Shown: in pieces, positions 45,543-60,718 of the stretch
Numbering within the stretch: position 1 is the first letter of the stretch
How the letters are laid out: the number at the start of each line of letters is the position of its first letter
Assembly: GCF_000452705.1 (NCBI RefSeq)
Contig: NZ_CP007014.1
Coordinates: 3,348,001 to 3,412,000 of the forward strand
Origin: Pseudomonas syringae CC1557
GTDB taxonomy: Bacteria > Pseudomonadota > Gammaproteobacteria > Pseudomonadales > Pseudomonadaceae
DNA: 64,000 bases
Reading direction: 5' to 3'
Position numbers and translations under genes: made by a program
The notes under the pieces: generated by a model
The model's database searches: none
What the model saw: only the letters and a program-made list of their open reading frames with translations
Told to the model about the DNA's origin: nothing

Positions 45543-46682
45543 TCAGGCGCCGGGCTTGAGTACCACTTTGGTCCAGCCATCATCGCGAGCATCGAAGTGC
45601 TGGTAGGCTTTCGGGCCTTCTTCCAGCTTCAGGCGATGGGAAATGATCTGCGACGGCTTGGCACGGTCGTGATGAATCAACTCGGCCAGTCGACGGTTAT
45701 AACCCTTGACGTTGGCCTGGCCGGTGCGGATCTGCTGGCCCTTGAACCAGAACGAACCGAAGTCGAAGGCCATCTTGCCTTCCTTCGCCAGGTCGTTGTG
45801 GGCGCCCGGATCCTGCGGCACGAAAACGCCTACGACACCGATCCCACCAGTCGCCTTGGTCGACGCCACGAGGTTGTTCATGGTGACGTGGTTGGCCTCG
45901 TGACCATGACGGTCGCAGCACTGATAACCGACGCATTCGCAGCCACGGTCGGTGCCCTTGCCATTGGTCAGGTTGAGAATCTGATCCACTGCGCCCTGCT
46001 CCAGCGAGTTGATCGGCGTGGCGCCCATCTTCGCTGCGAGCGCCAGACGGTCCGGATGGTTGTCCACCACGAACACTTGCGAAGCGCCCTTGATCATTGC
46101 CGAATGCGCCGCCATCAGACCAACCGGGCCAGCGCCGTAAATCGCAACGCTTTCACCTGGCAGCAGACCCGCCAGCTCGGTGGCGTGCCAGCCGGTAGGG
46201 AAAATATCCGAGAGCATGACGTAGTCGTCTTCGCGCTCGGACGCATCTTCGGGCAACAGCAGGCAATTGAAGTCGGCATAGGGCACACGCAGCAGCTCGG
46301 CCTGGCCACCTTCATGGTCGCCCATGTCAGCAAAACCATACGCTGCGCCGGCACTGCCAGGGTTGGCGGTCAGGCAATAGCCGGTCAGGCCTTTTTCACA
46401 ATTTTCGCAGAACCCACAACCGATGTTGAACGGCAGGCACACCCAGTCACCCACTTTGATGCGGTCTACGCCTGCACCGACCTCGATCACCTGACCCATG
46501 TTTTCATGGCCAAAGATGCGCCCGGTCTCGAACGAGGTACGACCTTCGTACATGTGCAGGTCCGAGCCGCAGATATTGGTGGAGGTCACTCTGATCAGAG
46601 CGTCTGTCGGCTTCTCTATTTTCGCATCCGGTACGTTCTTGACACTGACGTCACGCGGACCGCTATAGACGATCGCTTTCAT
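45543..46682 (-). CDS. Zinc dehydrogenase, glutathione-independent formaldehyde dehydrogenase-like
   Basis: A 379-residue MDR. Catalytic zinc residues are in NICGSDLHMYEG and GHENMG; structural zinc cysteines are in CGFCENCEKGLTGYC. The NAD fold has YGAGPVGLMAA. The GCECVGYQC segment is typical of FdhA-type enzymes that oxidise formaldehyde with bound NAD. It is somewhat shorter than P. putida FdhA (about 399), so the substrate is uncertain. Confidence 0.86.
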   Translation of the reverse strand: MKAIVYSGPRDVSVKNVPDAKIEKPTDALIRVTSTNICGSDLHMYEGRTSFETGRIFGHENMGQVIEVGAGVDRIKVGDWVCLPFNIGCGFCENCEKGLTGYCLTANPGSAGAAYGFADMGDHEGGQAELLRVPYADFNCLLLPEDASEREDDYVMLSDIFPTGWHATELAGLLPGESVAIYGAGPVGLMAAHSAMIKGASQVFVVDNHPDRLALAAKMGATPINSLEQGAVDQILNLTNGKGTDRGCECVGYQCCDRHGHEANHVTMNNLVASTKATGGIGVVGVFVPQDPGAHNDLAKEGKMAFDFGSFWFKGQQIRTGQANVKGYNRRLAELIHHDRAKPSQIISHRLKLEEGPKAYQHFDARDDGWTKVVLKPGA

Positions 46683-46897
46683 ATTCGACTCTCCTGAGTT
46701 TAAAAATTCGATGAAGCTTTTTATGGCTCACCGAATGTCTGTCACAACGAGGACCGGCATGTTCAAAGCGATTGGCCGCACACCTGACGAGCGGTCATGC
46801 CAAGGAAGGTCGGGTACACATTTTATCCGGCTTCAAGGCTGCTAAAAATGACTGATACCCGCGTTTACGGCTCGCAAATAAGCATTTGCATCATTAG

Positions 46898-46917
46898 TCT
46901 TATGGTATACCATCAGA
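46898..46917. promoter_or_regulatory. GntR-type palindromic operator, site 1
   Basis: TCTTATGGTATACCATCAGA is a 20-base palindrome with one mismatched pair, centred on GGTATACC. It lies 33 bases before the DUF1185 gene. The core TGGTATACCA fits the TNGTnnnACNA pattern of FCD-type GntR regulators such as the one at 50605. Confidence 0.75.
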
Positions 46918-46949
46918 CGAAATACAACGTATTTCCCCGGGGGTCGTTC

Positions 46950-47540
46950 ATGAGTTTCGAGATTCGCAAGATCGTTAATTACACCGAAGAAACCTTCATA
47001 GAAGGTGGCAAAGCCACTGACAAGCCGGTGACGATGGTAGGCCTGGCAGTCGTGATCAAAAACCCGTGGCTGGGAAGCGGATTTGTCGAAGACCTCAAGC
47101 CGGAGATTCGCGCCAACTGCTCGGATCTGGGCGAGCTGATGGTCAAGCGCCTCACCGACGCCATTGGCGGTGCAGACAAGATCGAAGCCTACGGCAAAGC
47201 TGCAGTGGTCGGTACAGACGGCGAAATCGAACACGCCTCGGCGGTGATTCATACCCTGCGCTTCGGCAATCACTACCGCGAAGCGGTAAAGGCCAAGAGC
47301 TACCTGAGCTTCACCAACAAGCGCGGCGGCCCTGGCACGTCGATTCAGATTCCGATGATGCACAAGGATGACGAAGGCCTGCGTTCGCACTACATCACTC
47401 TGGAAATGCACATTGAAGATGCGCCACGCGCCGACGAAATCATCGTCGTGCTGGGTGCAGCCAACGGCGGACGTCTGCATCCGCGCATTGGTAACCGCTA
47501 TATCGATCTGGAAGAACTGGCCGCCGAAAAGGCGCAGTAA
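46950..47540 (+). CDS. DUF1185 (amino acid synthesis family) protein
   Basis: A 196-residue protein of Pfam DUF1185. It begins with EIRKIVNYTEETFIEGG, has VGTDGEIEHASAVIHTLRFG in the middle and ends with RIGNRYIDLEEL. Solved members have a chorismate-mutase-like fold and no proven reaction. It is the first gene of an operon with a hydrolase, an aldehyde dehydrogenase and a flavin reductase, and is preceded by operator site 1. Start ATG at 46950; a longer frame from 46797 would run through the operator and is rejected. Confidence 0.85.
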   Translation: MSFEIRKIVNYTEETFIEGGKATDKPVTMVGLAVVIKNPWLGSGFVEDLKPEIRANCSDLGELMVKRLTDAIGGADKIEAYGKAAVVGTDGEIEHASAVIHTLRFGNHYREAVKAKSYLSFTNKRGGPGTSIQIPMMHKDDEGLRSHYITLEMHIEDAPRADEIIVVLGAANGGRLHPRIGNRYIDLEELAAEKAQ

Positions 47541-47573
47541 TCGTCCCTATCCACTTATGCGCAGGAGCGATCC

Positions 47574-48422
47574 ATGATTCAGCTCACCGCTGAACGCACC
47601 CCGGCGGGTACCAGCTATCTGGCTACCGGCCAAGGTCACCCCGTGGTGTTAATTCACGGGGTGGGCTTGAATAAAGAAATGTGGGGCGGCCAGATCGTTG
47701 GTCTGGCGGCGCATTATCAAGTCATTGCCTATGACATGCTCGGCCATGGTGCCAGCCAGCGCCCCGACCCGGACACCGGCCTGCCGGGGTATGCCGAGCA
47801 ATTGCGCGAGCTGCTGGAACACCTCGGTCTGGCGAAGGCGACCGTCATCGGTTTCTCGATGGGAGGCCTGGTTGCACGCGCATTCGCCCTGCAATTCCCC
47901 CAGCACCTGTCTGGGTTGATCATTCTCAACAGCGTGTTCAACCGCAGCCCGGAACAGCGCGCCGGTGTTATCGCACGCACAAGCCAGGCCGCCGAGCATG
48001 GCCCGGATGCCAACGCGGGCGAAGCACTGTCGCGCTGGTTCAGCCGCGAATATCAGGCGGCCAACCCGGCGCAGATCGCGGCCATCCGGCAAAACCTGGC
48101 CAGCAATGACCCGCAGGGTTACCTGACCGCGTACAAGTTATTCGCTACTCAGGACATGTACCGCGCCGACGATCTGGGTGATATTCGTGTGCCCACGCTG
48201 GTCGTCACCGGTGAGCTGGACCCCGGATCAACCCCGGAAATGGCCCGCGAACTGGCGCTGCGCATCCGCGGGGCCGAAGTCGCCATATTGCCCGATCAGC
48301 GTCATATGATGCCGGTGGAATCGCCGCGCCTGGTCAATCAGGTGTTAACGGCGTTCTTTGAAAAGATCGGCCTGGAAAAATCGGCGTCCGCCCACCATTC
48401 GATAAAGGGGACCGTTGCATGA
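47574..48422 (+). CDS. Alpha/beta hydrolase
   Basis: A 282-residue hydrolase. The oxyanion motif is LIHGVGLNKEMWGG, the nucleophile S95 is in GFSMGG, the acid lies in GELDPGS and the His in DQRHMMPVESP. The pattern resembles RutD or enol-lactonase-like enzymes. AGGAGCG precedes ATG. It overlaps the ALDH by 4 bases, so it acts in the same pathway. Confidence 0.87.
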   Translation: MIQLTAERTPAGTSYLATGQGHPVVLIHGVGLNKEMWGGQIVGLAAHYQVIAYDMLGHGASQRPDPDTGLPGYAEQLRELLEHLGLAKATVIGFSMGGLVARAFALQFPQHLSGLIILNSVFNRSPEQRAGVIARTSQAAEHGPDANAGEALSRWFSREYQAANPAQIAAIRQNLASNDPQGYLTAYKLFATQDMYRADDLGDIRVPTLVVTGELDPGSTPEMARELALRIRGAEVAILPDQRHMMPVESPRLVNQVLTAFFEKIGLEKSASAHHSIKGTVA

Positions 48423-49900
48423 GCCTTACCCGCTTCCAGATGTGCATCGACGGCCAGTGGGTCGACGCGCTGTCCGGCAACACCTTCGAGAGCATGAATC
48501 CGGCGCTGGCCGAGCCGTGGGCGCAACTGCCTGACGCCGATGAAGCCGATGTCGAGCGCGCCGTGCAGGCCGCGCAAAAAGCCTTCGAAAGCCCGGCGTG
48601 GCGGGGCCTGACTGCCACCGCACGCGGCAAACTGCTGCGCAAGCTGGGCGACCTGATCGCCGAGAACAAGGAGCAATTGGCACAACTGGAGAGCCGCGAC
48701 AACGGCAAGCTGATTCGCGAAACCCGCGGCCAGGTCAGCTATCTGCCAGAGTTTTTTCACTACACCGCCGGGCTGGCTGACAAACTCGAAGGCGGCACCC
48801 TGCCCCTCGACAAGCCGGACCTGTTTGCCTACACCGTTCACGAGCCTATGGGCGTGGTGGCCGGGATCATTCCCTGGAACAGCCCGCTGTACCTGACCGC
48901 CATCAAACTGGCTCCCGCGCTGGCCGCCGGGAATACCATTGTGCTCAAGCCTTCGGAGCATGCCTCGGCGACTGTTCTGGAGCTGGCACGCCTGGCACTG
49001 GAGGCTGGAATACCGCCCGGCGTGGTCAATGTCATCACCGGTTACGGCCCCACTACCGGCGCAGCCCTGACCCGTCATCCACTGGTGCGCAAGATTGCCT
49101 TCACCGGCGGCGCTGCCACGGCGCGGCATGTAGTGCGCAGCAGCGCGGAAAACTTCGCCAAACTGTCGCTTGAACTGGGCGGCAAGTCGCCGAATATCAT
49201 TTTTGCCGACGCCGACCTCGACAGCGCCATCAATGGCGCCGTTGCGGGCATCTATGCCGCGTCAGGGCAGAGCTGTGTGTCCGGCTCGCGATTGCTGGTG
49301 CAGGATGAAATCTACGACGAGTTCGTCGAACGCCTGGCCGAACGCGCCAGCCGGATCCGCATCGGCAATCCTCAGGATGAAGCCACTGAAATGGGCCCGA
49401 TGGCCACCGCCCAGCAACTGGCGGTGGTCGAGGGTCTGGTGGCCGACGCGCTGGCTGAAGGCGCACGCCTGCGTCTGGGTGGCAAACGTCCTGAACTGGA
49501 CAGTAAGGGCTGGTTCTATGAACCTACGCTATTCGAGTGCGATCACAACTCAATGAAGATCATGCAGGAAGAAGTCTTCGGTCCGGTCGCATCGGTGATT
49601 CGTTTCAAGGACGAAGCCGAAGCGCTGGCCATCGCCAACGACTCCCAGTTCGGCCTTGCTGCCGGTATCTGGACCCGCGACCTGGGCCGTGCCCACCGGC
49701 TGGCCCGCGACATCCGCTCAGGGATCATCTGGGTCAACACGTATCGTGCGGTATCGGCCATGGCGCCTATCGGCGGTTTTAAAAACAGCGGCTACGGTCG
49801 CGAGAGCGGGATAGACTCTGTGCTGGCCTACACCGAACTGAAAACGGTGTGGATCAACCTTTCGCAGGCGCCCATGCCTGATCCATTTGTCATGCGTTAA
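48419..49900 (+). CDS. Aldehyde dehydrogenase
   Basis: A 493-residue ALDH with Cys in GQSCVSGSRLL, Glu in LELGGKSPN and the Asn in IPWNSPLYL. It resembles broad carboxylic-semialdehyde dehydrogenases. It is the third gene of the DUF1185 operon, with a 4-base overlap upstream and 13 bases before the flavin reductase. Substrate not known. Confidence 0.87.
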   Translation: MSLTRFQMCIDGQWVDALSGNTFESMNPALAEPWAQLPDADEADVERAVQAAQKAFESPAWRGLTATARGKLLRKLGDLIAENKEQLAQLESRDNGKLIRETRGQVSYLPEFFHYTAGLADKLEGGTLPLDKPDLFAYTVHEPMGVVAGIIPWNSPLYLTAIKLAPALAAGNTIVLKPSEHASATVLELARLALEAGIPPGVVNVITGYGPTTGAALTRHPLVRKIAFTGGAATARHVVRSSAENFAKLSLELGGKSPNIIFADADLDSAINGAVAGIYAASGQSCVSGSRLLVQDEIYDEFVERLAERASRIRIGNPQDEATEMGPMATAQQLAVVEGLVADALAEGARLRLGGKRPELDSKGWFYEPTLFECDHNSMKIMQEEVFGPVASVIRFKDEAEALAIANDSQFGLAAGIWTRDLGRAHRLARDIRSGIIWVNTYRAVSAMAPIGGFKNSGYGRESGIDSVLAYTELKTVWINLSQAPMPDPFVMR

Positions 49901-49913
49901 CGAGGCCGCTGCG

Positions 49914-50399
49914 ATGATTGAACCGAGTATCTACAAAGAAGTGATGGCGTCATTCCCTTCGGGCGTCACGATTGTCACCACGCTGGACCCCGAGGGCAAT
50001 CTGGTCGGTATCACCGCCAGTGCGTTCAGTGCGCTGTCCATCGACCCGGCATTGGTGCTGTTCTGCCCCAATTACGCGTCCGACACCTACCCGGTGCTGC
50101 GCGACAGCAAAAAGTTTGCGATTCACCTGCTGTCTGCCGATCAGCAGGTCGAGGCCTACGCGTTCGCCAGCAAGGGCAAAGACAAGACCAAAGGCATCGA
50201 GTGGCAGCTGAGCGAGCTGGGCAACCCGCTCCTGGACAAGGCCACCGCCATCATCGAATGCGAGTTGTGGCGTGAATACGATGGAGGTGATCACGCGATC
50301 ATCGTCGGCGCCGTAAAAAATCTGATTCTGCCTGCAACTCCTGTGACGCCGATGATCTATCACCGCGGCAAGATGGGTGCGCTCGCGCCGATCGTCTGA
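49914..50399 (+). CDS. Flavin reductase component (RutF/HpaC-like)
   Basis: A 161-residue flavin:NAD(P)H reductase of the two-component monooxygenase type. FPSGVTIVTTLDPEGNLVG and TASAFSALSIDPALVLFCP are the signature, and a C-terminal YHRGKMG motif follows. Such proteins supply reduced FMN or FAD to an oxygenase. No oxygenase is encoded in this operon. GAGG site, ATG at 49914. Confidence 0.85.
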   Translation: MIEPSIYKEVMASFPSGVTIVTTLDPEGNLVGITASAFSALSIDPALVLFCPNYASDTYPVLRDSKKFAIHLLSADQQVEAYAFASKGKDKTKGIEWQLSELGNPLLDKATAIIECELWREYDGGDHAIIVGAVKNLILPATPVTPMIYHRGKMGALAPIV

Positions 50400-50484
50400 G
50401 GCTGCGGCAGGCGGTTTTGGTGGTTGCAGGCGCCGGCGTGATAAACTCGGCCGCGCCCCGGATGCAAACCTGCGGGGCATGCAG

Positions 50485-50507
50485 CAGCCCGCGTGGTTCG
50501 CGGGCTG
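50485..50507 (+). terminator. GC-rich hairpin between flavin reductase and GntR genes
   Basis: CAGCCCGCG-TGGTT-CGCGGGCTG is a 9-bp perfect stem in a 205-base gap. A second weaker pairing (GCCCCG/CGGGGC, about 50454-50478) precedes it. No T run; a structured leader for the GntR gene is also possible. Confidence 0.4.
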
Positions 50508-50604
50508 GCGACATGAGCGAGGCTTTGGCTACAGTCATGTCTACCGTCGTGTTTTTCACATCGCCAGCCCCCTTACATTGACAGCCCAATACCGAGCAAA
50601 CCCG

Positions 50605-51922
<1,318 letters not shown>

Positions 51923-51993
51923 GGGCAGCAGCAAGTGAAGCAGTCCGCGGAGTGCTTGATTTTGCTTCTGGCTTGCAGCTTGAAGCTCTGAGC

Positions 51994-52284
51994 TTACGGC
52001 TGCCCTTCAACTATCACAATTTCGGCCTTTGACGCGCCTTGCCGGTGGCTCATGGCGTTCTGGTACTCAGGCGAGTGGTAGCAGGCGACGGCCTGTGCAT
52101 AGGATTCAAACTCGATAATGACCGTGCGTTGCGGCGTTGTCCGGCCTTCCATGGCTTCGGACCGGCCGCCCCGCGCCAGGAATTTGCCGCCAAACAGACT
52201 GAATGCAGCGGGTGCACGCTGGGTGTATTCGCTGTACTGCTGGGGGTCGGTCACATCGACGTGCGCAATCCAATAAGCCTTCAT
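51994..52284 (-). CDS. DUF1330 family protein
   Basis: A 96-residue ferredoxin-fold-like protein of DUF1330. KAYWIAHVDVTDPQQYSEYT at the start, FGGKFLARGG and IIEFESYAQAVACYHSPEYQ are typical. It diverges from the ribB-like gene across operator site 2, so it is likely under the same control. Biochemical role unknown; may be a small isomerase or binding protein. Confidence 0.85.
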   Translation of the reverse strand: MKAYWIAHVDVTDPQQYSEYTQRAPAAFSLFGGKFLARGGRSEAMEGRTTPQRTVIIEFESYAQAVACYHSPEYQNAMSHRQGASKAEIVIVEGQP

Positions 52285-52329
52285 CGTGATCTCACTGTTT
52301 CATTGGTGGGGAATCTGTGAAATATTCTG

Positions 52330-52347
52330 TCTTATGGTATACCAAGA
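52330..52347. promoter_or_regulatory. GntR-type palindromic operator, site 2
   Basis: TCTTATGGTATACCAAGA, core TTATGGTATACCA shared exactly with site 1. It is 26 bases before the ribB-like start and 46 bases before the DUF1330 start on the other strand, so one site can serve both. Confidence 0.72.
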
Positions 52348-52372
52348 TTTATCTTTTCATAGCACTGGGGTC

Positions 52373-53488
52373 ATGAGCATGGCATTTGATCGCATTGAAG
52401 ACATCATTGAAGACTACCGCCAGGGCAAAATGGTCTTGCTGGTCGACGATGAAGACCGGGAAAACGAAGGTGACCTCTTGCTCGCCGCCGATTGTTGTTC
52501 GGCGCAAGCGATCAGTTTCATGGCCCGCGAGGCGCGCGGGCTGATCTGCCTGACACTGACCGACGAGCATTGCCAGCGCCTTGGCCTGGAGCAGATGGTG
52601 CCGAGCAACGGCAGTGTATTCGCCACCGCCTTCACCGTATCCATCGAGGCCACCACCGGGGTGACCACCGGTATCAGCGCCGCAGATCGCGCCCGCACCG
52701 TGCAGGCGGCAGTCAATCCGGCGGCGGTTCCCGAAGATCTGGTGCAGCCGGGTCATATCTTCCCCTTGCGTGCGCGGGACGGCGGCGTGCTGACCCGCGC
52801 GGGTCACACCGAAGCAGGCTGCGACCTCGCCCGCCTGGCCGGTTTAACGCCCGCCTCGGTGATCGTCGAAGTCATGAATGACGACGGCAGCATGGCGCGA
52901 CGGCCTGACCTGGAAAGGTTTGCGGAAAAACACGGCATCCGCATCGGTACTATCGCGGACCTGATTCACTACCGGCTCAGCACCGAACACACCATCGTCA
53001 GAATCGGTGAGCGCGAGTTGCCCACGGTACACGGCACTTTTCGCCTGTTCAGCTACGAAGACCGCATCGAAGGCGGAGTGCACATGGCAATGGTGATGGG
53101 TGATATCCGTCGTGAGGATGCCACACTCGTGCGTGTACACGTGGTCGATCCACTGCGTGATCTGGTCGGTGCCGAATACACAGGGCCGGCCAACTGGACC
53201 CTTTGGGCTGCGCTGCAACGGGTCGCCGAAGAAGGTCGCGGTGTGGTCGTGGTGCTGGCCAATCATGAATCGTCTCAAGCCCTGCTGGCGCGTATTCCGC
53301 AACTCACCCAGCCACCTCGGCAATACACACGCTCGCAATCACGCATCTATTCCGAAGTTGGCACCGGTGCGCAGATTCTGCAGGACCTGGGCGTCGGCAA
53401 ACTTCGTCATCTCGGTCCGCCGCTGAAGTACGCCGGTCTGACGGGCTACGATCTGGAAGTGATTGAAAGCATTCCGTTTCCCGGCTGA
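52373..53488 (+). CDS. ribB: 3,4-dihydroxy-2-butanone 4-phosphate synthase with degenerate GTP cyclohydrolase II-like domain (RibBX type)
   Basis: A 371-residue protein. The N-terminal domain (1-205) has all RibB marks: DDEDRENEGDLLLAA, ATTGVTTGISAADR, RAGHTEAGCDLARLAG and MNDDGSMARR. It makes the four-carbon precursor of riboflavin from ribulose 5-phosphate. The C-terminal part resembles GTP cyclohydrolase II but lacks its zinc cysteines (VRVHVVDPLRDLVGAEY where RVHSECLTGD...CDCG is expected), so it should not open GTP. No FMN riboswitch precedes it; instead operator site 2 does. It is probably an extra, pathway-induced copy. Confidence 0.87.
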   Translation: MSMAFDRIEDIIEDYRQGKMVLLVDDEDRENEGDLLLAADCCSAQAISFMAREARGLICLTLTDEHCQRLGLEQMVPSNGSVFATAFTVSIEATTGVTTGISAADRARTVQAAVNPAAVPEDLVQPGHIFPLRARDGGVLTRAGHTEAGCDLARLAGLTPASVIVEVMNDDGSMARRPDLERFAEKHGIRIGTIADLIHYRLSTEHTIVRIGERELPTVHGTFRLFSYEDRIEGGVHMAMVMGDIRREDATLVRVHVVDPLRDLVGAEYTGPANWTLWAALQRVAEEGRGVVVVLANHESSQALLARIPQLTQPPRQYTRSQSRIYSEVGTGAQILQDLGVGKLRHLGPPLKYAGLTGYDLEVIESIPFPG

Positions 53489-53757
53489 CGCTGAGGAAAA
53501 CCGCCTTTACTCATTGGCTTTCAAGGATGAGAAAGCATCGAATGAAGGCATTTTGCAGGGGCAAAATGCTTGCAGAAAGTTTGGAATACCATAATATGAC
53601 ATTCCATCAACCGACTGCTTTGTCAGGTACACCCGCCTAGGGACAGCATCAATAAAAGCGCCTGACCGTTTCAAGTTTCAAGGCCCATTGGACCTACTGC
53701 TCCCGATTAAGCGGGCGACAAAGCCCGCTCAAAAACACAACAAATGAGGGCGTGAAC
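53489..53757 (+). promoter_or_regulatory. Control region of the ABC importer operon, with operator site 3
   Basis: A 269-base gap. At 53581-53594, TTGGAATACCATAA is the inverse of sites 1 and 2 with one change in the core. A hairpin GCATTTTGC-AGGG-GCAAAATGC (53548-53569) lies just before it and AGCGGGC-GACAAA-GCCCGCT (53710-53729) lies in the leader. Neither hairpin has a T run. Confidence 0.6.
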
Positions 53758-54783
53758 ATGGTGTTGAACAAACGTGCAATGGCAGTCCTGGCGGCTGGCG
53801 TGCTGGCTTTATCGAGTGCCGCCGCCAGCGCCGCTGACAGCGTCAATTTCGTCAGCTGGGGCGGCTCCACTCAGGACTTCCAGAAAGAAGCCTGGGCAGC
53901 GCCATTCAGCAAGGCCAGCGGCATTACGGTGGTGCAGGACGGCCCGACCGACTACGGCAAACTCAAGGCCATGGTCGAAAGCGGCAACGTGCAGTGGGAC
54001 GTGGTCGACGTCGAAGCCGATTTCGCCCTGCGCGCCGCCAGCGAGGGCCTGCTGGAGCCCCTGGACTTCAACACCATCAAACGCGACGAGATCGACAAAC
54101 GCTTTGTGACCGACCATGGCGCAGGCTCCTTCTTCTTCTCCTTTGTGCTCGGTTTCAACGAGAGCAAGGTAGGCGCCAAGCCTCCTGCCGACTGGTCCGC
54201 CATGTTTGACACCAAGACCTACCCCGGCAAGCGCGCCCTTTACAAATGGCCAAGCCCCGGCGTACTCGAACTGGCGCTGCTGGCCGACGGCGTAGCACCC
54301 GACAAGCTCTATCCGCTGGACCTCGATCGCGCCTTCAAGAAGCTCGACACCATCAAGAAAGACATCGTCTGGTGGGGCGGCGGTGCGCAATCGCAGCAGC
54401 TGCTTGCCTCCGGCGAAGTGTCGATGGGCCAGATGTGGAACGGCCGGGTCTACGCCCTGCAACAGGATGGCGCGCCGGTGGGTGTGAGCTGGAAGCAGAA
54501 CCTGGTCATGGCTGATTTTCTGGTCGTGCCCAAGGGCGCAAAAAACAAGGACGCTGCGATGAAGTTCATCGCCAATGCGACCAGTGCCAAAGGTCAGGCA
54601 GACTTCTCCAACCTCAGTGCCTACGCGCCGGTCAATACCCAAAGCATCGCTCGTCTGGACGAGACACTGGCGCCCAATCTGCCGACTGCGCACGTCGCCG
54701 ACCAGATCACGCTCGACTTCGCCTACTGGGCCAAGAACGGTGCCGACATTGCGACACGGTGGAACGAATGGCTGGTCAAGTGA
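53758..54783 (+). CDS. ABC transporter substrate-binding protein, spermidine/putrescine type
   Basis: A periplasmic binding protein of about 341 residues. Signal peptide cleaved after ASA near residue 25; mature part starts DSVNFVSWGG. It belongs to the PotD-like family by SWGG...QKEAWAAPF and WDVVDVEADF. ATG at 53758 fits the GAGGG site better than the GTG at 53752. Ligand unknown: polyamines or related organic anions or cations. Confidence 0.87.
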   Translation: MVLNKRAMAVLAAGVLALSSAAASAADSVNFVSWGGSTQDFQKEAWAAPFSKASGITVVQDGPTDYGKLKAMVESGNVQWDVVDVEADFALRAASEGLLEPLDFNTIKRDEIDKRFVTDHGAGSFFFSFVLGFNESKVGAKPPADWSAMFDTKTYPGKRALYKWPSPGVLELALLADGVAPDKLYPLDLDRAFKKLDTIKKDIVWWGGGAQSQQLLASGEVSMGQMWNGRVYALQQDGAPVGVSWKQNLVMADFLVVPKGAKNKDAAMKFIANATSAKGQADFSNLSAYAPVNTQSIARLDETLAPNLPTAHVADQITLDFAYWAKNGADIATRWNEWLVK

Positions 54784-54785
54784 AA

Positions 54786-55724
54786 ATGACCGCTGTCGTC
54801 CCTCGTCAATCCAACCCGGCCGGTGGTGCGTCAAGCACTGCCGGTGCGGCCTGCCACAAGGCTACGAGCATGCAGCCATCCCCTTCTCTCGCGCAGCGCT
54901 GGCGTGGCAGTCGCAACCTGCTTCCGGCGCTGTTGTTCCTGGGCCTGTTTTTCTTCGCGCCATTGATCGGCCTGCTGCTGCGCGGCGTACTTGAACCGGT
55001 GCCCGGCCTGGGTAATTACGAGCAGCTGTTCGCCAACTCGGCCTATTCCAGGGTATTGCTGAACACCTTCTCGGTCGCCGGGTTGGTCACGCTGTTCAGC
55101 CTGCTGCTGGGCTTCCCGCTGGCGTGGGTCATCACTCTGGTGCCACGCGGCTGGGGGCGCTGGATCCTCAACATCGTACTGCTGTCGATGTGGACCAGCC
55201 TGCTGGCCCGCACCTATTCGTGGCTGGTACTGCTGCAGGCTTCGGGCGTCATCAACAAGGCGCTGATGGGCATGGGCATCATTGATCAGCCGCTGGAGAT
55301 GGTGCACAACCTGACCGGCGTGGTGATCGGCATGAGCTACATCATGATTCCGTTCATTGTTCTGCCGTTGCAGGCGACCATGCAGGCCATCGACCCGATG
55401 GTGTTGCAGGCCGGTTCGATCTGCGGCGCGAGCCCATGGACCAATTTTTTCCGGGTATTTCTGCCGCTGTGCCGTCCGGGGCTGTTTTCCGGTGGCCTGA
55501 TGGTGTTTGTCATGTCGCTCGGCTATTACGTCACACCCGCGTTGCTGGGTGGCGCACAGAACATGATGCTGCCCGAATTCATCGTCCAGCAGGTGCAGTC
55601 GTTCCTCAACTGGGGTCTGGCCAGTGCCGCCGCCGCGTTGCTGGTTCTGATCACGCTGGTGCTGTTCTACTTCTACCTGAAGCTCCAGCCGGAATCTCCG
55701 GTCGGTGCCAGTAACGCGAGGTAA
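54786..55724 (+). CDS. ABC transporter permease (PotB/PotH type)
   Basis: About 312 residues with six membrane helices and an EAA-like loop (QAGSICGASPWTNFFRVFLP). A long polar N-terminus precedes the first helix. The ATG lies 3 bases after the binding-protein stop; a GTG at 54780 that overlaps the stop is possible. Confidence 0.88.
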   Translation: MTAVVPRQSNPAGGASSTAGAACHKATSMQPSPSLAQRWRGSRNLLPALLFLGLFFFAPLIGLLLRGVLEPVPGLGNYEQLFANSAYSRVLLNTFSVAGLVTLFSLLLGFPLAWVITLVPRGWGRWILNIVLLSMWTSLLARTYSWLVLLQASGVINKALMGMGIIDQPLEMVHNLTGVVIGMSYIMIPFIVLPLQATMQAIDPMVLQAGSICGASPWTNFFRVFLPLCRPGLFSGGLMVFVMSLGYYVTPALLGGAQNMMLPEFIVQQVQSFLNWGLASAAAALLVLITLVLFYFYLKLQPESPVGASNAR

Positions 55725-55730
55725 GCCGCC

Positions 55731-56546
55731 ATGCTCCTGACACCCAATGCCATGAGCCCCGGTCTGCGCACGGGCCTGTACCTGACCACCGCGCTGATCG
55801 CACTGTTTCTGCTGCTGCCGATCCTGTTCATCATCCTGCTGTCGTTCGGCTCATCGCAATGGCTGGTGTTTCCACCGCCCGGCTGGACGTTGAAGTGGTA
55901 TCAGCAGTTCTTCTCCAATCCGGACTGGATGGCCGCAGCGATGTCCAGCCTCAAGGTTGCAGTCCTGACGACCATTGCCTCGGTAGCGCTGGGCCTGCCG
56001 ACCGCCTTTGCGCTGGTGCGCGGGCGGTTTCCGGGGCGCGACATTCTGTATGGCGTGTTCACATTGCCGATGATCGTGCCACTGGTGATCATCGCGGTGG
56101 CGGTTTACGCGCTGTTCCTCAAGCTCGGCTACACCGGAACGCTGTTTTCCTTCGTCGTCAGCCATGTGATTGTCGCCCTGCCGTTCACCATCATCTCGAT
56201 CATTAATTCGCTGAAGCTGTTCGATCAGTCCATCGAAGATGCCGCAGTGATCTGCGGCGCATCGCGTTTGCAGGCGATCCGCAAGGTGACCTTCCCCGGC
56301 ATCCGGCCAGGCATGATGGCCGGCGCGCTGTTTGCGTTTCTGGTGTCGTGGGACGAAGTGGTGCTGAGCGTGATGATGGCCAGCCCGACCCTGCAAACCC
56401 TTCCCGTGAAAATGTGGACCACGCTGCGTCAGGACCTGACGCCCGTCATCGCGGTCGCCTCAACGCTGCTGATCGCGCTGTCGGTGGTGATCATGTTCAT
56501 CGCTGCGACCCTGCGTCGGCGTAACGAAGCCAGGAGTATTTCATGA
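55731..56546 (+). CDS. ABC transporter permease (PotC/PotI type)
   Basis: 271 residues, six membrane helices, EAA loop (EDAAVICGASRLQAIRKVTFP). It starts 7 bases after the first permease and overlaps the ATPase gene by 4 bases. Confidence 0.9.
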   Translation: MLLTPNAMSPGLRTGLYLTTALIALFLLLPILFIILLSFGSSQWLVFPPPGWTLKWYQQFFSNPDWMAAAMSSLKVAVLTTIASVALGLPTAFALVRGRFPGRDILYGVFTLPMIVPLVIIAVAVYALFLKLGYTGTLFSFVVSHVIVALPFTIISIINSLKLFDQSIEDAAVICGASRLQAIRKVTFPGIRPGMMAGALFAFLVSWDEVVLSVMMASPTLQTLPVKMWTTLRQDLTPVIAVASTLLIALSVVIMFIAATLRRRNEARSIS

Positions 56547-57697
56547 GTGCCGTGATCAAAGACCCCGCCCGCCCACAGCAGAAACCGCTGGTCGCGCTGT
56601 GCAACCTGAACAAGCATTACGGCAACTTCGCTGCCGTCGACGACATTTCCCTGGATATCCAGGACGGCGAGTTTCTGACCTTTCTGGGCTCCAGCGGCTC
56701 GGGCAAAAGCACCACGCTGTCGATGCTGGCCGGGTTCGAAACACCCAGCTCAGGCGAGATTCTGGTGGGCGGCAAATCGCTGGTGAATGTACCGCCGCAC
56801 AAGCGTGACATCGGCATGGTCTTCCAGCGCTATTCGCTGTTTCCGCACCTGTCGGTGCGCGACAACATTGCCTTCCCGCTGGCCATCCGCAAGCTGCCTG
56901 CTGCCGAGCGTGAAAGGAAGGTCGATGCGATGCTCAAGCTGGTCCAGCTGGAAGAGTTCGCTCACCGCCGCCCTTCGCAACTGTCCGGCGGCCAGCAACA
57001 ACGGGTCGCCATTGCCAGAGCGCTGGTCTACGAGCCGCGCATCCTGCTGATGGACGAGCCACTCGGCGCGCTGGATAAAAAACTGCGTGAAGACCTGCAG
57101 GACGAACTGCGTCAGTTGCACCGCAGGCTGGGCATTACCATTGTCTACGTGACCCATGATCAGGAAGAAGCCATGCGCCTGTCACAGCGCATTGCGATTT
57201 TCAGCCACGGCAAGATTGTCGGTCTGGGCAGCGGATACGATCTGTATCAGAACCCGCCGAATGCCTTTGTCGCCTCATTTCTCGGCAACTCGAATTTCCT
57301 CAGGCTCAAGGCTCAGGGCAATGCCGTGGCGACGTTTGAAGGCAACTCGCTGGCGATTCGCCTGACCTCGGGGCTCAAGACCGATCAGGACGTGTTGCTG
57401 ATGGTGCGTCCGGAAAAGGCTCAGGCATTGAGCGTTTCCCAAGCGGCCGCAACGCCGCTCGAAGCCGGCTGGAATGAGGTCAGCGCGAACGTCACCGAGG
57501 TACTGTTTCTGGGGGAAAGCCAGACCTGCTCGGTGGTGACCACCGGTGGCACGGCAATGACCGTCAAAGCGCTGTCGGCCACCGGCATGCCGCTCCAGGC
57601 CGGTGATCCGGTGCGTGTGCGCTGGGCCGCCGCCGATGCCTGCATCTACACCGAATGGACAGACACCGACCTGAACAAGGCAGCAGGCGCGCACTGA
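56543..57697 (+). CDS. ABC transporter ATPase (PotA type)
   Basis: 384 residues. Walker A GSSGSGKST, signature LSGGQQQR, Walker B ILLMDEPLGALD and H-loop VTHDQEEAM, with a C-terminal TOBE-like domain (about 290-370). It completes the importer. The operon ends here; the next gene is convergent. Confidence 0.92.
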   Translation: MSAVIKDPARPQQKPLVALCNLNKHYGNFAAVDDISLDIQDGEFLTFLGSSGSGKSTTLSMLAGFETPSSGEILVGGKSLVNVPPHKRDIGMVFQRYSLFPHLSVRDNIAFPLAIRKLPAAERERKVDAMLKLVQLEEFAHRRPSQLSGGQQQRVAIARALVYEPRILLMDEPLGALDKKLREDLQDELRQLHRRLGITIVYVTHDQEEAMRLSQRIAIFSHGKIVGLGSGYDLYQNPPNAFVASFLGNSNFLRLKAQGNAVATFEGNSLAIRLTSGLKTDQDVLLMVRPEKAQALSVSQAAATPLEAGWNEVSANVTEVLFLGESQTCSVVTTGGTAMTVKALSATGMPLQAGDPVRVRWAAADACIYTEWTDTDLNKAAGAH

Positions 57698-57703
57698 CGG
57701 TGC

Positions 57704-58609
57704 TCAGACAGGCGCATGGTGCAAGGCGAAGTAATCGCGCAGAAACGCCACAGTGACGCGAATCTTCGCCGAGCTCATCAGCGGTGATGTGTGCACGGCC
57801 CAGATATCCGCATCCTGCCGATATTCGGGCATGACCTGAACCAGCCGACCTTCAGCCAGCTCGCTGCGTACATCCCATAGCGAGCGCAATAACAGTCCTC
57901 GCCCGTCCAGACACCACTGGCGGGCGATTTCGCCATGGTTGGTCGACAGGCTGCCGGTGACCTTCACCGTTTCTGCGCCCTGCGGCCCGTGCAGATGCCA
58001 GATGCCGAACGGCCGGTCGCGCTCCTTGATGACCAGGCAATCGTGATTCGCCAGTTCGCCAAGGCTGACGGGCGTGCCGTGCTGCTGCAGATACTCCGGG
58101 CTCGCGCACAGTACCCGCCAGTTGCGGACCAGATGCCGGGCACGCAGATGCGGCGCGATTTCGTTGCCAACGCGAATATCCAGATCCACGCCCTCCTCGA
58201 TCAGGTCCACCAGCCGGTCCTGAATATCCAGCCGTATGTCCAGCTTCGGGTAGCGCGCTGCCAGCTCCGACAAGGCAGGCGCCACAAAGCGGCGGCCGAA
58301 ACCCTGACTACTGACCACCCGCAACAGGCCGCTCGGCTCGCCGTGCAACGCCGCAACTTCATCGCCCATCTGCTGCACGGATTCAAGAATGCCCTTGGCC
58401 CATTCGTAGACGCGCTCGCCGTCTTCGGTAATCGATACTTGCCGGGTGGAACGGTGCAGCAATACCACGCCCATGTTCTGCTCCAGCAGCTTGACGCGCT
58501 TGCTGACATACGCGGCGGACATGCCCAACTCATTGGCAGCCCCCACGAAACTGGAGCGCCGCGCAACGTGAATGAACACATTCAGGTCATCCAGATTCGG
58601 ATAGTTCAC
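57704..58609 (-). CDS. LysR-family regulator, divergent from tartrate/malate dehydrogenase
   Basis: A 301-residue LysR protein with N-terminal HTH (NVFIHVARRSSFVGAANELG) and typical effector domain. It diverges from the dehydrogenase gene at 58720 with a 110-base promoter region, the usual layout of a DmlR-type activator and its target. The effector is likely tartrate or D-malate. Confidence 0.86.
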   Translation of the reverse strand: MNYPNLDDLNVFIHVARRSSFVGAANELGMSAAYVSKRVKLLEQNMGVVLLHRSTRQVSITEDGERVYEWAKGILESVQQMGDEVAALHGEPSGLLRVVSSQGFGRRFVAPALSELAARYPKLDIRLDIQDRLVDLIEEGVDLDIRVGNEIAPHLRARHLVRNWRVLCASPEYLQQHGTPVSLGELANHDCLVIKERDRPFGIWHLHGPQGAETVKVTGSLSTNHGEIARQWCLDGRGLLLRSLWDVRSELAEGRLVQVMPEYRQDADIWAVHTSPLMSSAKIRVTVAFLRDYFALHHAPV

Positions 58610-58719
58610 GGTTCGTGTTTTCTCAATCCATTAATCGACTGATTATCTTTATACCGTGCGCTTATAACATCAGTCACTCGCAAAAATTCATCGCAAGTCT
58701 TTCGCCTGGAGTGCTGACC

Positions 58720-59814
58720 ATGAACAACAAGAAACTGCGCATTGCTGCGATTGCCGGAGACGGCATCGGCCTTGAAGTCCTGCCTGAAGGTGTCAAGGTG
58801 GTCCAGGCGGTTGCCGCAAAACACGGGCTGGAGCTGGAATTCGAGTACTTCGAATGGGCCAGCTGCGATTACTACCTGGCGCACGGCAAGATGATGCCGG
58901 ACGACTGGTTCGAACAGTTAAAAGGCTTCGATTCGATTTTCTTCGGTGCCGTGGGCTGGCCGGACAAAGTACCCGACCACATTTCCCTGTGGGGCTCGTT
59001 GCTCAAGTTTCGTCGCGAGTTCGACCAGTACGCCAACATCCGCCCGGTGCGACTGTTCCCCGGCGTGCCCTGCCCGCTCGCCAATCGCAAACCGGGCGAT
59101 ATCGACTTCATCGTGGTGCGGGAAAATACCGAAGGTGAATACTCGTCACTCGGCGGGATCATGTTCGAGAACACCGAAAACGAGTTCGTCTTGCAGGAGT
59201 CGGTATTCACCCGTCGCGGTGTCGATCGCATCCTCAAATTCGCCTTCGAAATGGCCAGCAACCGCGAGCGCAAGCACGTCACCTCGGCGACCAAGTCCAA
59301 CGGCATGGCCATCAGCATGCCCTACTGGGACAAACGCACCGAGGCGATGGCCAGCCAGTACCCGGACATCAGTTGGGACAAACAGCACATCGACATTCTC
59401 TGCGCACGCTTCGTGTTGCAACCCGAGCGCTTCGACGTGGTGGTGGCGTCCAACCTGTTCGGTGACATCCTCAGCGACCTCGGCCCGGCGTGCGCTGGCA
59501 CCATTGGCATCGCACCGTCAGCCAACCTCAACCCGGAGCGCAATTTCCCGTCGCTGTTCGAACCGGTGCATGGCTCGGCCCCGGACATCTTCGGCCAGAA
59601 CATCGCCAACCCGATCGCGATGATCTGGTCAGGCGCGCTGATGCTGGAATTCCTGGGTCAAGGCGATGAGCGCTTCACGACGGCGCATGACGAAATCATC
59701 ACCGCTATCGAACAGGTGATCGCCAGCGGCGAGGTCACGCCGGATCTGGGCGGTACACTTTCGACTCAGCAGGTGGGTGCGGCAATCGCCAAGCGGCTTG
59801 GCGCAGCCTGCTAA
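58720..59814 (+). CDS. ttuC: Tartrate dehydrogenase/D-malate dehydrogenase (decarboxylating)
   Basis: A 364-residue isocitrate/isopropylmalate dehydrogenase-family enzyme. N-terminal [27 protein letters not shown] and the metal-site segment [22 protein letters not shown] are clear. TtuC and DmlA use NAD to convert tartrate or D-malate. TGGAG precedes ATG at 58720. Stop overlaps the convergent ptrR stop by 4 bases. Confidence 0.9.
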
Positions 59815-60698
59815 GCGGTTGACTCGACCTTGGCTGGCGCGCCCCGCTGTTCGAGCAACTCCACGAAGCGAGTCAGGCTGCGCGACACCGTGCCCCGGCG
59901 CCAGATCAGCCAGGTGTGCAGATAACGAAACTGCTCGGAGAGTGGCCAGATACTGACCGTGGTGCAGCCAGGCATGCTTTCGAGCATGCTGCGCGGCATC
60001 AGCGCCAGCCCGGCACCGGCGCTGACACACGCCAGCATGCCGTGGTAAGACTCCATCTCATGGATCTTGCCCGGCACTGCCGCATCGTCGCTGAACCAGC
60101 GTTCGAAGTGGTGCCGGTACGAGCAGTTGGCACGAAACGCATAGATACTTTCACCACTGACATCACGTCCACGCTTGACCGGGGTGTGATTGAGCGGCGC
60201 AATAATCACCATCTCCTCTTCGAATACCGGCACGCCTTCCAGAGAGGGGTGCAGCACCGGCCCGTCAACGAATGCCGCAACCAGTCGTCCGGCCAGAACC
60301 CCGTCGATCATGGTGCCGGACGGTCCGGTCGAGAGGTCCAGTTCGACCTTGGCGTTTTGCTGGTTGTAGGCAGCAAGCAATGCCGGGATACGCACGGCTG
60401 CGGTGCTTTCCAGTGACCCCAGCGAAAACGGCCCTTGCGGCTCTTCCCCGGAAACAGCAGAGCGCGCCTCCTGTACCAGATCCAGAATCCGCCGAGTGTA
60501 ATCGAGAAAATTCCAGCCGGCGGGCGACAGGCGCAAGCGATGCTTTTCGCGGATGAACAGGTCCACGCCGAGGTCTTGTTCAAGCTGCTTGATCCGCGTG
60601 GTCAGGTTCGAGGGCACGCGATGAATCTGCTGTGCGGCTGCACTGATGCTGCCATGCTCGGCGACGGCCTTGAAAATCTCCAGCTGGACCAGATCCAT
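59811..60698 (-). CDS. LysR-family regulator PtrR-like
   Basis: A 295-residue regulator collinear with E. coli PtrR/Yne[60 protein letters not shown] and [18 protein letters not shown] at 60698 follows GGAG; an in-frame ATG at 60710 lacks a site. It is divergent from sad, as in E. coli, and probably represses or activates it in response to putrescine or GABA metabolism. Confidence 0.88.
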
Positions 60699-60718
60699 GC
60701 TTTTCTCCATACGTGAAC

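Follow-up and report, generated by a model that had tools for sequence, protein, structure and literature searches.

A 13-nucleotide motif, TTATGGTATACCA, marks three gene units in a 64,000-nucleotide stretch of the Pseudomonas syringae CC1557 genome (NZ_CP007014.1, positions 3,348,001 to 3,412,000; hereafter the window) and one remote gene, and comparison with related genomes indicates that the genes so marked are very probably switched together. The explanation that we favour, and consider likely, is that the motif is the predicted operator, present at four places, of a TgnR-like GntR repressor of trigonelline-type catabolism, whose regulon would comprise an ATP-binding cassette (ABC) importer, a two-component oxygenase, a dehydrogenase, a hydrolase and RibBX. 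This reading would unite genes with uninformative names (a spare ribB, DUF1185, DUF1330 and a 'polyamine-type' importer) in a single testable pathway for a common plant compound. A 13-letter operator would point to an oxygenase over a megabase away, and the arrangement suggests that a catabolic regulon includes flavin synthesis.

An earlier note on the window had placed three copies of the motif before an operon, a RibBX gene and an importer, and all three were recovered there (sites 1–3; Table 1). It had also named a genome-wide scan beforehand, with a motif common away from the locus as the refuting outcome. Across the genome (5,811,653 bases in 2 contigs), the 13-mer occurs exactly at two places, both in the window, and allowing one mismatch adds just site 3 and a remote fourth site on contig C1 (C1:2254843-2254855, − strand), a result that does not refute the proposal. 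The same scan with the pattern read backwards gave 0 matches. Within the window, the 10-nucleotide core TGGTATACCA is found exactly at sites 1 and 2 only, with site 3 as its sole one-mismatch copy, in agreement with the note's remark that the core does not recur there. Of 482 tiles of 260 nt elsewhere in the window, 0 contain the core at up to one mismatch. Genome-wide, the 10-mer alone discriminates less well, with 41 places at one mismatch (92 for its backward control). Looser searches of the window gave counts near or above expectation (11 matches versus 3.8 expected for the 13-mer at three mismatches; 12 versus 9.7 for the 10-mer at two); therefore, only the strict forms of the motif are informative. 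The copies had been described as palindromes; outside the core, this holds well for site 1 alone: self-complementarity in the 20-mer is 18/20 at site 1, 12/20 at sites 2 and 3 and 14/20 at site 4.

The occurrence of the motif was compared with that of the regulator gene in a genus sample of 199 genomes, CC1557 included, in which gntR was scored as present at E of at most 1e-40. By this measure gntR is present in 114/199 genomes, and TTAYGGTATWCCA is found in 114/114 genomes with gntR versus 4/85 without it; read backwards, the pattern is present in 5/199. The Fisher value for this co-occurrence, 1e-51, overstates the evidence, the genomes being related. Four genomes without gntR at threshold (G049, G050, G161 and G191) have one motif copy each. 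Upstream regions were examined in stretches from 60 of the 113 other gntR genomes, in which DUF1185 is present in 59, RibBX in 44 and the binding protein of the importer in 42. With the window included, the core at up to one mismatch lies within 260 nt upstream of DUF1185 in 60/60 cases, of RibBX in 45/45 and of the binding protein in 43/43, two of the last (L070 and L071) having a less similar binding protein (58–63%). The 30 nt around the core are represented by 45, 41 and 15 distinct sequences, respectively. These counts, together with those from distant loci described below, support the earlier proposal that one GntR regulon joins the operon, RibBX and the importer. The extent given to that regulon was too small: besides the three units, it would include at least one that is remote and contains an oxygenase gene.

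Two-component oxygenases consist of a luciferase-like protein and a flavin reductase. Among its listed genes, the operon in the window has the reductase and lacks the oxygenase. Site 4 lies 68 nt upstream of a gene for a 345-residue luciferase-like monooxygenase (LLM), 1.14 Mb from the window sites. Homologs of this LLM (E at most 1e-120) are present in 111/199 genus genomes, all 111 of which have gntR; G058, G076 and G080 have gntR and no LLM at threshold, G080 carrying an LLM fragment. In the order-wide search the LLM was found in 8/341 genomes. Upstream scoring of 64 LLM loci, merged to 60 distinct genomes since four genomes occurred twice, placed a site within 260 nt before the LLM, or before a flavin reductase preceding it, in 54/60 genomes, including CC1557. 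The other six (G160, G173, G124, G125, G010 and G153) have no such site, and in these the reductase–LLM pair starts 44–50 nt past the end of the importer ATPase match (loci L134, L145, L158, L052, L057 and L106; for four of them the gap was read off coordinates, since a second reductase is present). In these genomes the pair may be transcribed from site 3.

Table 1. Predicted operator sites and genes of the window, and the remote oxygenase gene (window positions unless prefixed C1).
Feature	Position	Strand	Evidence and remarks
Operator site 1 (TCTTATGGTATACCATCAGA)	46898..46917	+	13-mer 46900-46912 exact; 37 nt from 13-mer end to DUF1185 start codon
Operator site 2	52330..52347	+	13-mer 52332-52344 exact; between DUF1330 and RibBX
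Operator site 3 (TTATGGTATTCCA on − strand)	53579..53594	−	13-mer 53582-53594, one mismatch; before importer
DUF1185 / AA_synth protein, TgnF-like, first operon gene	46950..47540	+	PF06684, E 2.5e-70; 58% to Acinetobacter PK01 cluster protein
Alpha/beta hydrolase, TgnD position	47574..48422	+	PF00561; 35% to PK01 cluster hydrolase
Aldehyde dehydrogenase, TgnC-like	48419..49900	+	PF00171; 53% to annotated PK01 TgnC
Short flavin reductase, counterpart of TgnA reductase half	49914..50399	+	PF01613; 34% to PK01 TgnA
FCD-type GntR regulator, TgnR-like, proposed binder of four sites	50605..51357	+	PF00392 + PF07729; motif co-occurrence
NUDIX hydrolase with Zn ribbon	51359..51922	+	PF00293, PF14803; aligns with C-terminal half of long TgnA-type reductases
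DUF1330 protein, divergent from RibBX, site 2 common to both	51994..52284	−	PF07045; 54% to DUF1330 of PK01 and Burkholderia clusters
RibBX (DHBP synthase + GTP-cyclohydrolase-II domain)	52373..53488	+	NF009132 above cut-off
ABC importer: binding protein, two permeases, ATPase	53752..57697	+	PF13416, PF00528 twice, PF00005
LLM oxygenase	C1:2253740-2254774		PF00296; 48% to annotated TgnB (PK01)

The genes gathered by the motif resemble those of the tgn system. Perchat et al. are said to have described in 2018 the tgn cluster of Acinetobacter baylyi ADP1, in which ring opening, dehydrogenation and hydrolysis lead to succinate semialdehyde. On a plasmid of Acinetobacter sp. PK01, gntR and DUF1330 face DUF1185, a hydrolase, tgnA, tgnB and tgnC, followed by genes for a cytosine permease, a succinate semialdehyde dehydrogenase (SSADH) and CMD; the product names there include trigonelline monooxygenase and hydroxybutyrolactone dehydrogenase. 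CC1557 has counterparts of the DUF1185 protein, hydrolase, aldehyde dehydrogenase, flavin reductase, LLM oxygenase, GntR (37% identity) and DUF1330, as well as the operator core. Both components of the oxygenase are recognizable by homology only, and the dehydrogenase, hydrolase and DUF1185 genes are adjacent in the window (Table 1). Unlike the PK01 cluster, CC1557 has its oxygenase 1.14 Mb away, a short reductase with a separate NUDIX gene, RibBX and the ABC importer as units of their own, and gntR inside the operon rather than divergent from it. The SSADH, CMD and cytosine-type permease of PK01 are common to some relatives of CC1557 (72% and 79% identity for SSADH and CMD in L062, 56% for the permease in L101). 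The CC1557 genome itself yielded no cytosine-type permease homolog at E 1e-10, in a search whose positive controls were two relatives that matched strongly and a third that matched weakly (29%). Its SSADH candidates are 19 aldehyde dehydrogenase-type matches, the best at 67% (C1:5461959) and 62% (C1:190959), which are unlinked and have no motif copy nearby. In favour of a tgn-type pathway, three of 120 listed LLM relatives (76–79%) bear the JGI name trigonelline monooxygenase; the others have general names (LLM-class or SsuD-like oxidoreductase) or none. The listed hydrolase relatives have general names, including 3-oxoadipate enol-lactonase, none naming trigonelline. Among solved structures, no trigonelline enzyme is named in the LLM matches (5 at E 1e-15) or the hydrolase matches (10 at E 1e-20).

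Rhizobial clusters (on S. meliloti pSymA, R. etli p42c and Mesorhizobium plasmids) share with CC1557 the set of gntR, DUF1185, hydrolase, reductase, LLM and aldehyde dehydrogenase, followed by a matching ABC importer; they differ in forming a single contiguous block and, in some, in having a NIPSNAP gene in place of DUF1330. The S. meliloti cluster also has an SSADH gene, the R. etli stretch ends within the importer, and no RibBX match was found in the rhizobial stretches read. The CC1557 importer is close to its counterparts in the Burkholderia and Mesorhizobium clusters (binding protein 60–63%, permeases 55–58%, ATPase 47–50%). Polyamine import, the role suggested in the earlier note, was set aside on the basis of this similarity of the binding proteins and of matches far under the cut-offs of the PotD, PotF and PhnS models; the regulon most likely serves trigonelline-type catabolism instead.

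The predicted operator core is nearly unchanged across alpha-, beta- and gammaproteobacteria. At up to one mismatch it lies between gntR and DUF1185 in 11/13 distant plasmid loci (L112–L124, with members of all three classes among the carriers), in 9 of them exactly, and the GntR proteins of these 11 loci are 36–44% identical to that of the window. When 11 GntR proteins were aligned, the ten proteobacterial members proved strongly alike in the DNA-binding region, and the Arthrobacter protein differed there. In Burkholderia, DUF1330 also falls within the interval between gntR and DUF1185; in Caballeronia (L120), the gntR/DUF1185 pair is separated from the oxygenase gene. The sites of the two Mesorhizobium loci are nearly identical to each other. 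Two S. meliloti loci outside the 13 have a one-mismatch core each; pSymA of S. meliloti ml56, which carries the cluster, has it 32 nt before DUF1185.

Published phenotypes bear on the substrate. According to the accessible part of one study, S. meliloti wild type grows on trigonelline and a strain without pSymA does not (PMC4207669), and a 1991 paper, as cited in a portion of PMC6297676, assigns the genes for trigonelline catabolism to the rhizobial pSym. Taken with the cluster on ml56 pSymA, the growth phenotype is support, not proof, for trigonelline, because pSymA is large and the two results come from different strains. TgnF, a homolog of the DUF1185-type protein HcdD, is described in excerpts of PMC7913881 as stimulating the TgnE-dependent oxidation of succinic semialdehyde in A. 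baylyi, an effect not seen with HcdD. DUF1185 is tied to amino-acid metabolism in the section available of PMC2954203, a link that we do not adopt here. Trigonelline catabolism is not mentioned in the accessible parts of PMC4213383 or PMC12482172. Among the matches listed from the open-licence literature, none dealt with a GntR operator for trigonelline genes; such an operator may already have been published elsewhere.

The candidate regulator encoded between the sites is an FCD-type GntR protein, as the earlier note had stated: its winged helix-turn-helix (PF00392) and FCD (PF07729) domains both score above cut-offs. Its best NCBIfam match, PhnR_burk (TIGR03338), reaches 120.7 bits against a cut-off of 271.5, and the UxuR and ExuR models are far under theirs (32.2 versus 442 and 28.8 versus 396 bits). 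E. coli UxuR/ExuR use a TGGTATACCA-like site. A further statement, that the core fits the TNGTnnnACNA pattern of this family, fails: TGGT-AT-ACCA has a centre of 2 nt, whereas the 11-nt pattern has 3. We therefore lowered the claim about the motif and kept the FCD membership, which is based on the domains.

From the sites, their conservation, the co-occurrence and the homologies, we infer the following scheme. The TgnR-like GntR protein would bind a TATTATGGTATACCAT-type operator at four genome places: upstream of the DUF1185–hydrolase–aldehyde dehydrogenase–flavin reductase–gntR–NUDIX operon, in the gap that separates DUF1330 from RibBX, upstream of the ABC importer and upstream of the remote LLM. 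When substrate is absent these units would be repressed, and the substrate or an intermediate would release the repressor. The importer would take up trigonelline or a close N-methylpyridinium relative, the monooxygenase and flavin reductase would open the ring, and the aldehyde dehydrogenase and hydrolase would carry the product to succinate semialdehyde. RibBX, perhaps with the NUDIX protein, would raise the flavin supply.

The RibBX gene of the window is one of two copies in the genome (its paralog, at C1:709953-711035, is 56% identical), and the window copy probably supplies flavin to the pathway. No FMN riboswitch match to Rfam was found in 46600-54800 or in 4,083 bases around the paralog. 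At 25–30% identity, the stand-alone NUDIX protein can be aligned to the C-terminal half of the long reductases of TgnA type; by eye, that half lacks the catalytic box, and Pfam finds no NUDIX domain in it. The Arthrobacter cluster includes riboflavin kinase and NUDIX genes. Together, the RibBX copy, the NUDIX alignment and the Arthrobacter genes suggest that flavin supply is part of the pathway. We give about even chances to the stronger proposal that a catabolic TgnR-type repressor also governs flavin manufacture, controlling both the ring-opening oxygenase and, via its own operator, a dedicated RibBX, together with a NUDIX protein that is fused to the reductase in other lineages, such that extra cofactor would be made only with substrate present.

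Several observations weigh against a TgnR-like repressor of trigonelline catabolism. The LLM is just 48% identical to the annotated TgnB, and its nearest listed relatives (73–93%, many from actinobacteria) are other proteins, although intermediates at 53–63% to the CC1557 LLM exist. Identity to the distant clusters is only 34–42% for the hydrolase, 30–38% for the reductase and 31–44% for GntR. Two of the 13 distant loci have no core at up to one mismatch: the Thioclava locus, where a form with two mismatches is present, and the Arthrobacter locus, whose LLM (77%) is the closest of all 13. A scan of 46690-54000 around the sites found 0 sigma-70-like promoters versus 2.4 expected from shuffles, so repression by occlusion is unsupported. 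The gene names given by JGI and on the plasmids are propagated annotation.

A related substrate is possible because the oxygenase is so distant from the annotated TgnB. The regulon and mechanism could be as proposed and the substrate another N-methylpyridinium or pyridine, such as homarine, acted on by a diverged LLM. The LLM is far closer to those of the genus (85–97%) and of actinobacteria (73–78%) than to TgnB, and a short reductase stands in place of the 310-residue TgnA. We nevertheless judge this rather unlikely. The annotated cluster includes a counterpart of each of the DUF1185 protein, aldehyde dehydrogenase, DUF1330 protein, hydrolase, reductase and GntR, the binding protein matches those of the Burkholderia and Mesorhizobium clusters, and the SSADH, CMD and permease of L062 and L101 match those of PK01. 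Moreover, PK01 TgnB has no match above 53% in the 199 genus genomes, so they hold no more classical copy at that threshold. That the sites are a real operator bound by another regulator is very improbable, since the motif matches gntR genus-wide and lies beside the GntR counterpart in the 11 distant loci; the point in its favour is that the gntR gene of the window has no site immediately upstream of it. It is scarcely credible that the three copies arose by chance or belong to a shared repeat and play no part in regulation. The one-mismatch 10-mer does occur at 39 genome places beyond sites 3 and 4, but the core is present in 148/148 upstream regions (61 loci) versus 5/1656 coding tiles from the 60 relatives, and chance or a common repeat was rejected on this conservation, the genome-wide rarity of the motif and its co-occurrence with gntR.

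Some further features were observed around the sites and in related clusters. A TTGCA word precedes the core by 11 nt at sites 1 and 4 and is also present in the DUF1185 and importer consensus sequences; site 3 has two such words, the nearer at 6 nt (counted by eye) and the farther at 23 nt. This is a hint only. In two relatives, chemoreceptor genes with dCache and HBM sensor domains (L070:12318-14264 and L062:1758-3689) face the LLM or a second binding protein across a motif copy. The amine-type dCache receptors tested in the work excerpted in PMC10104139 did not bind trigonelline, which argues against a trigonelline receptor. Downstream of the importer, at 57704-60710, a tartrate dehydrogenase gene (TIGR02089 above cut-off) lies between two LysR genes; the core at up to one mismatch was not found in this region, and a tartrate dehydrogenase match is present in just three of the 60 relatives' stretches (L091–L093). 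The Arthrobacter cluster (L113) combines the LLM (77%) with two DUF1185 genes, riboflavin kinase, NUDIX, a tautomerase and a SnoaL–flavin reductase fusion, its GntR being about 30% identical and the motif absent. In Mesorhizobium (L114:7205-9004 and L124:5208-6995), the hydrolase and flavin reductase are fused in one protein.

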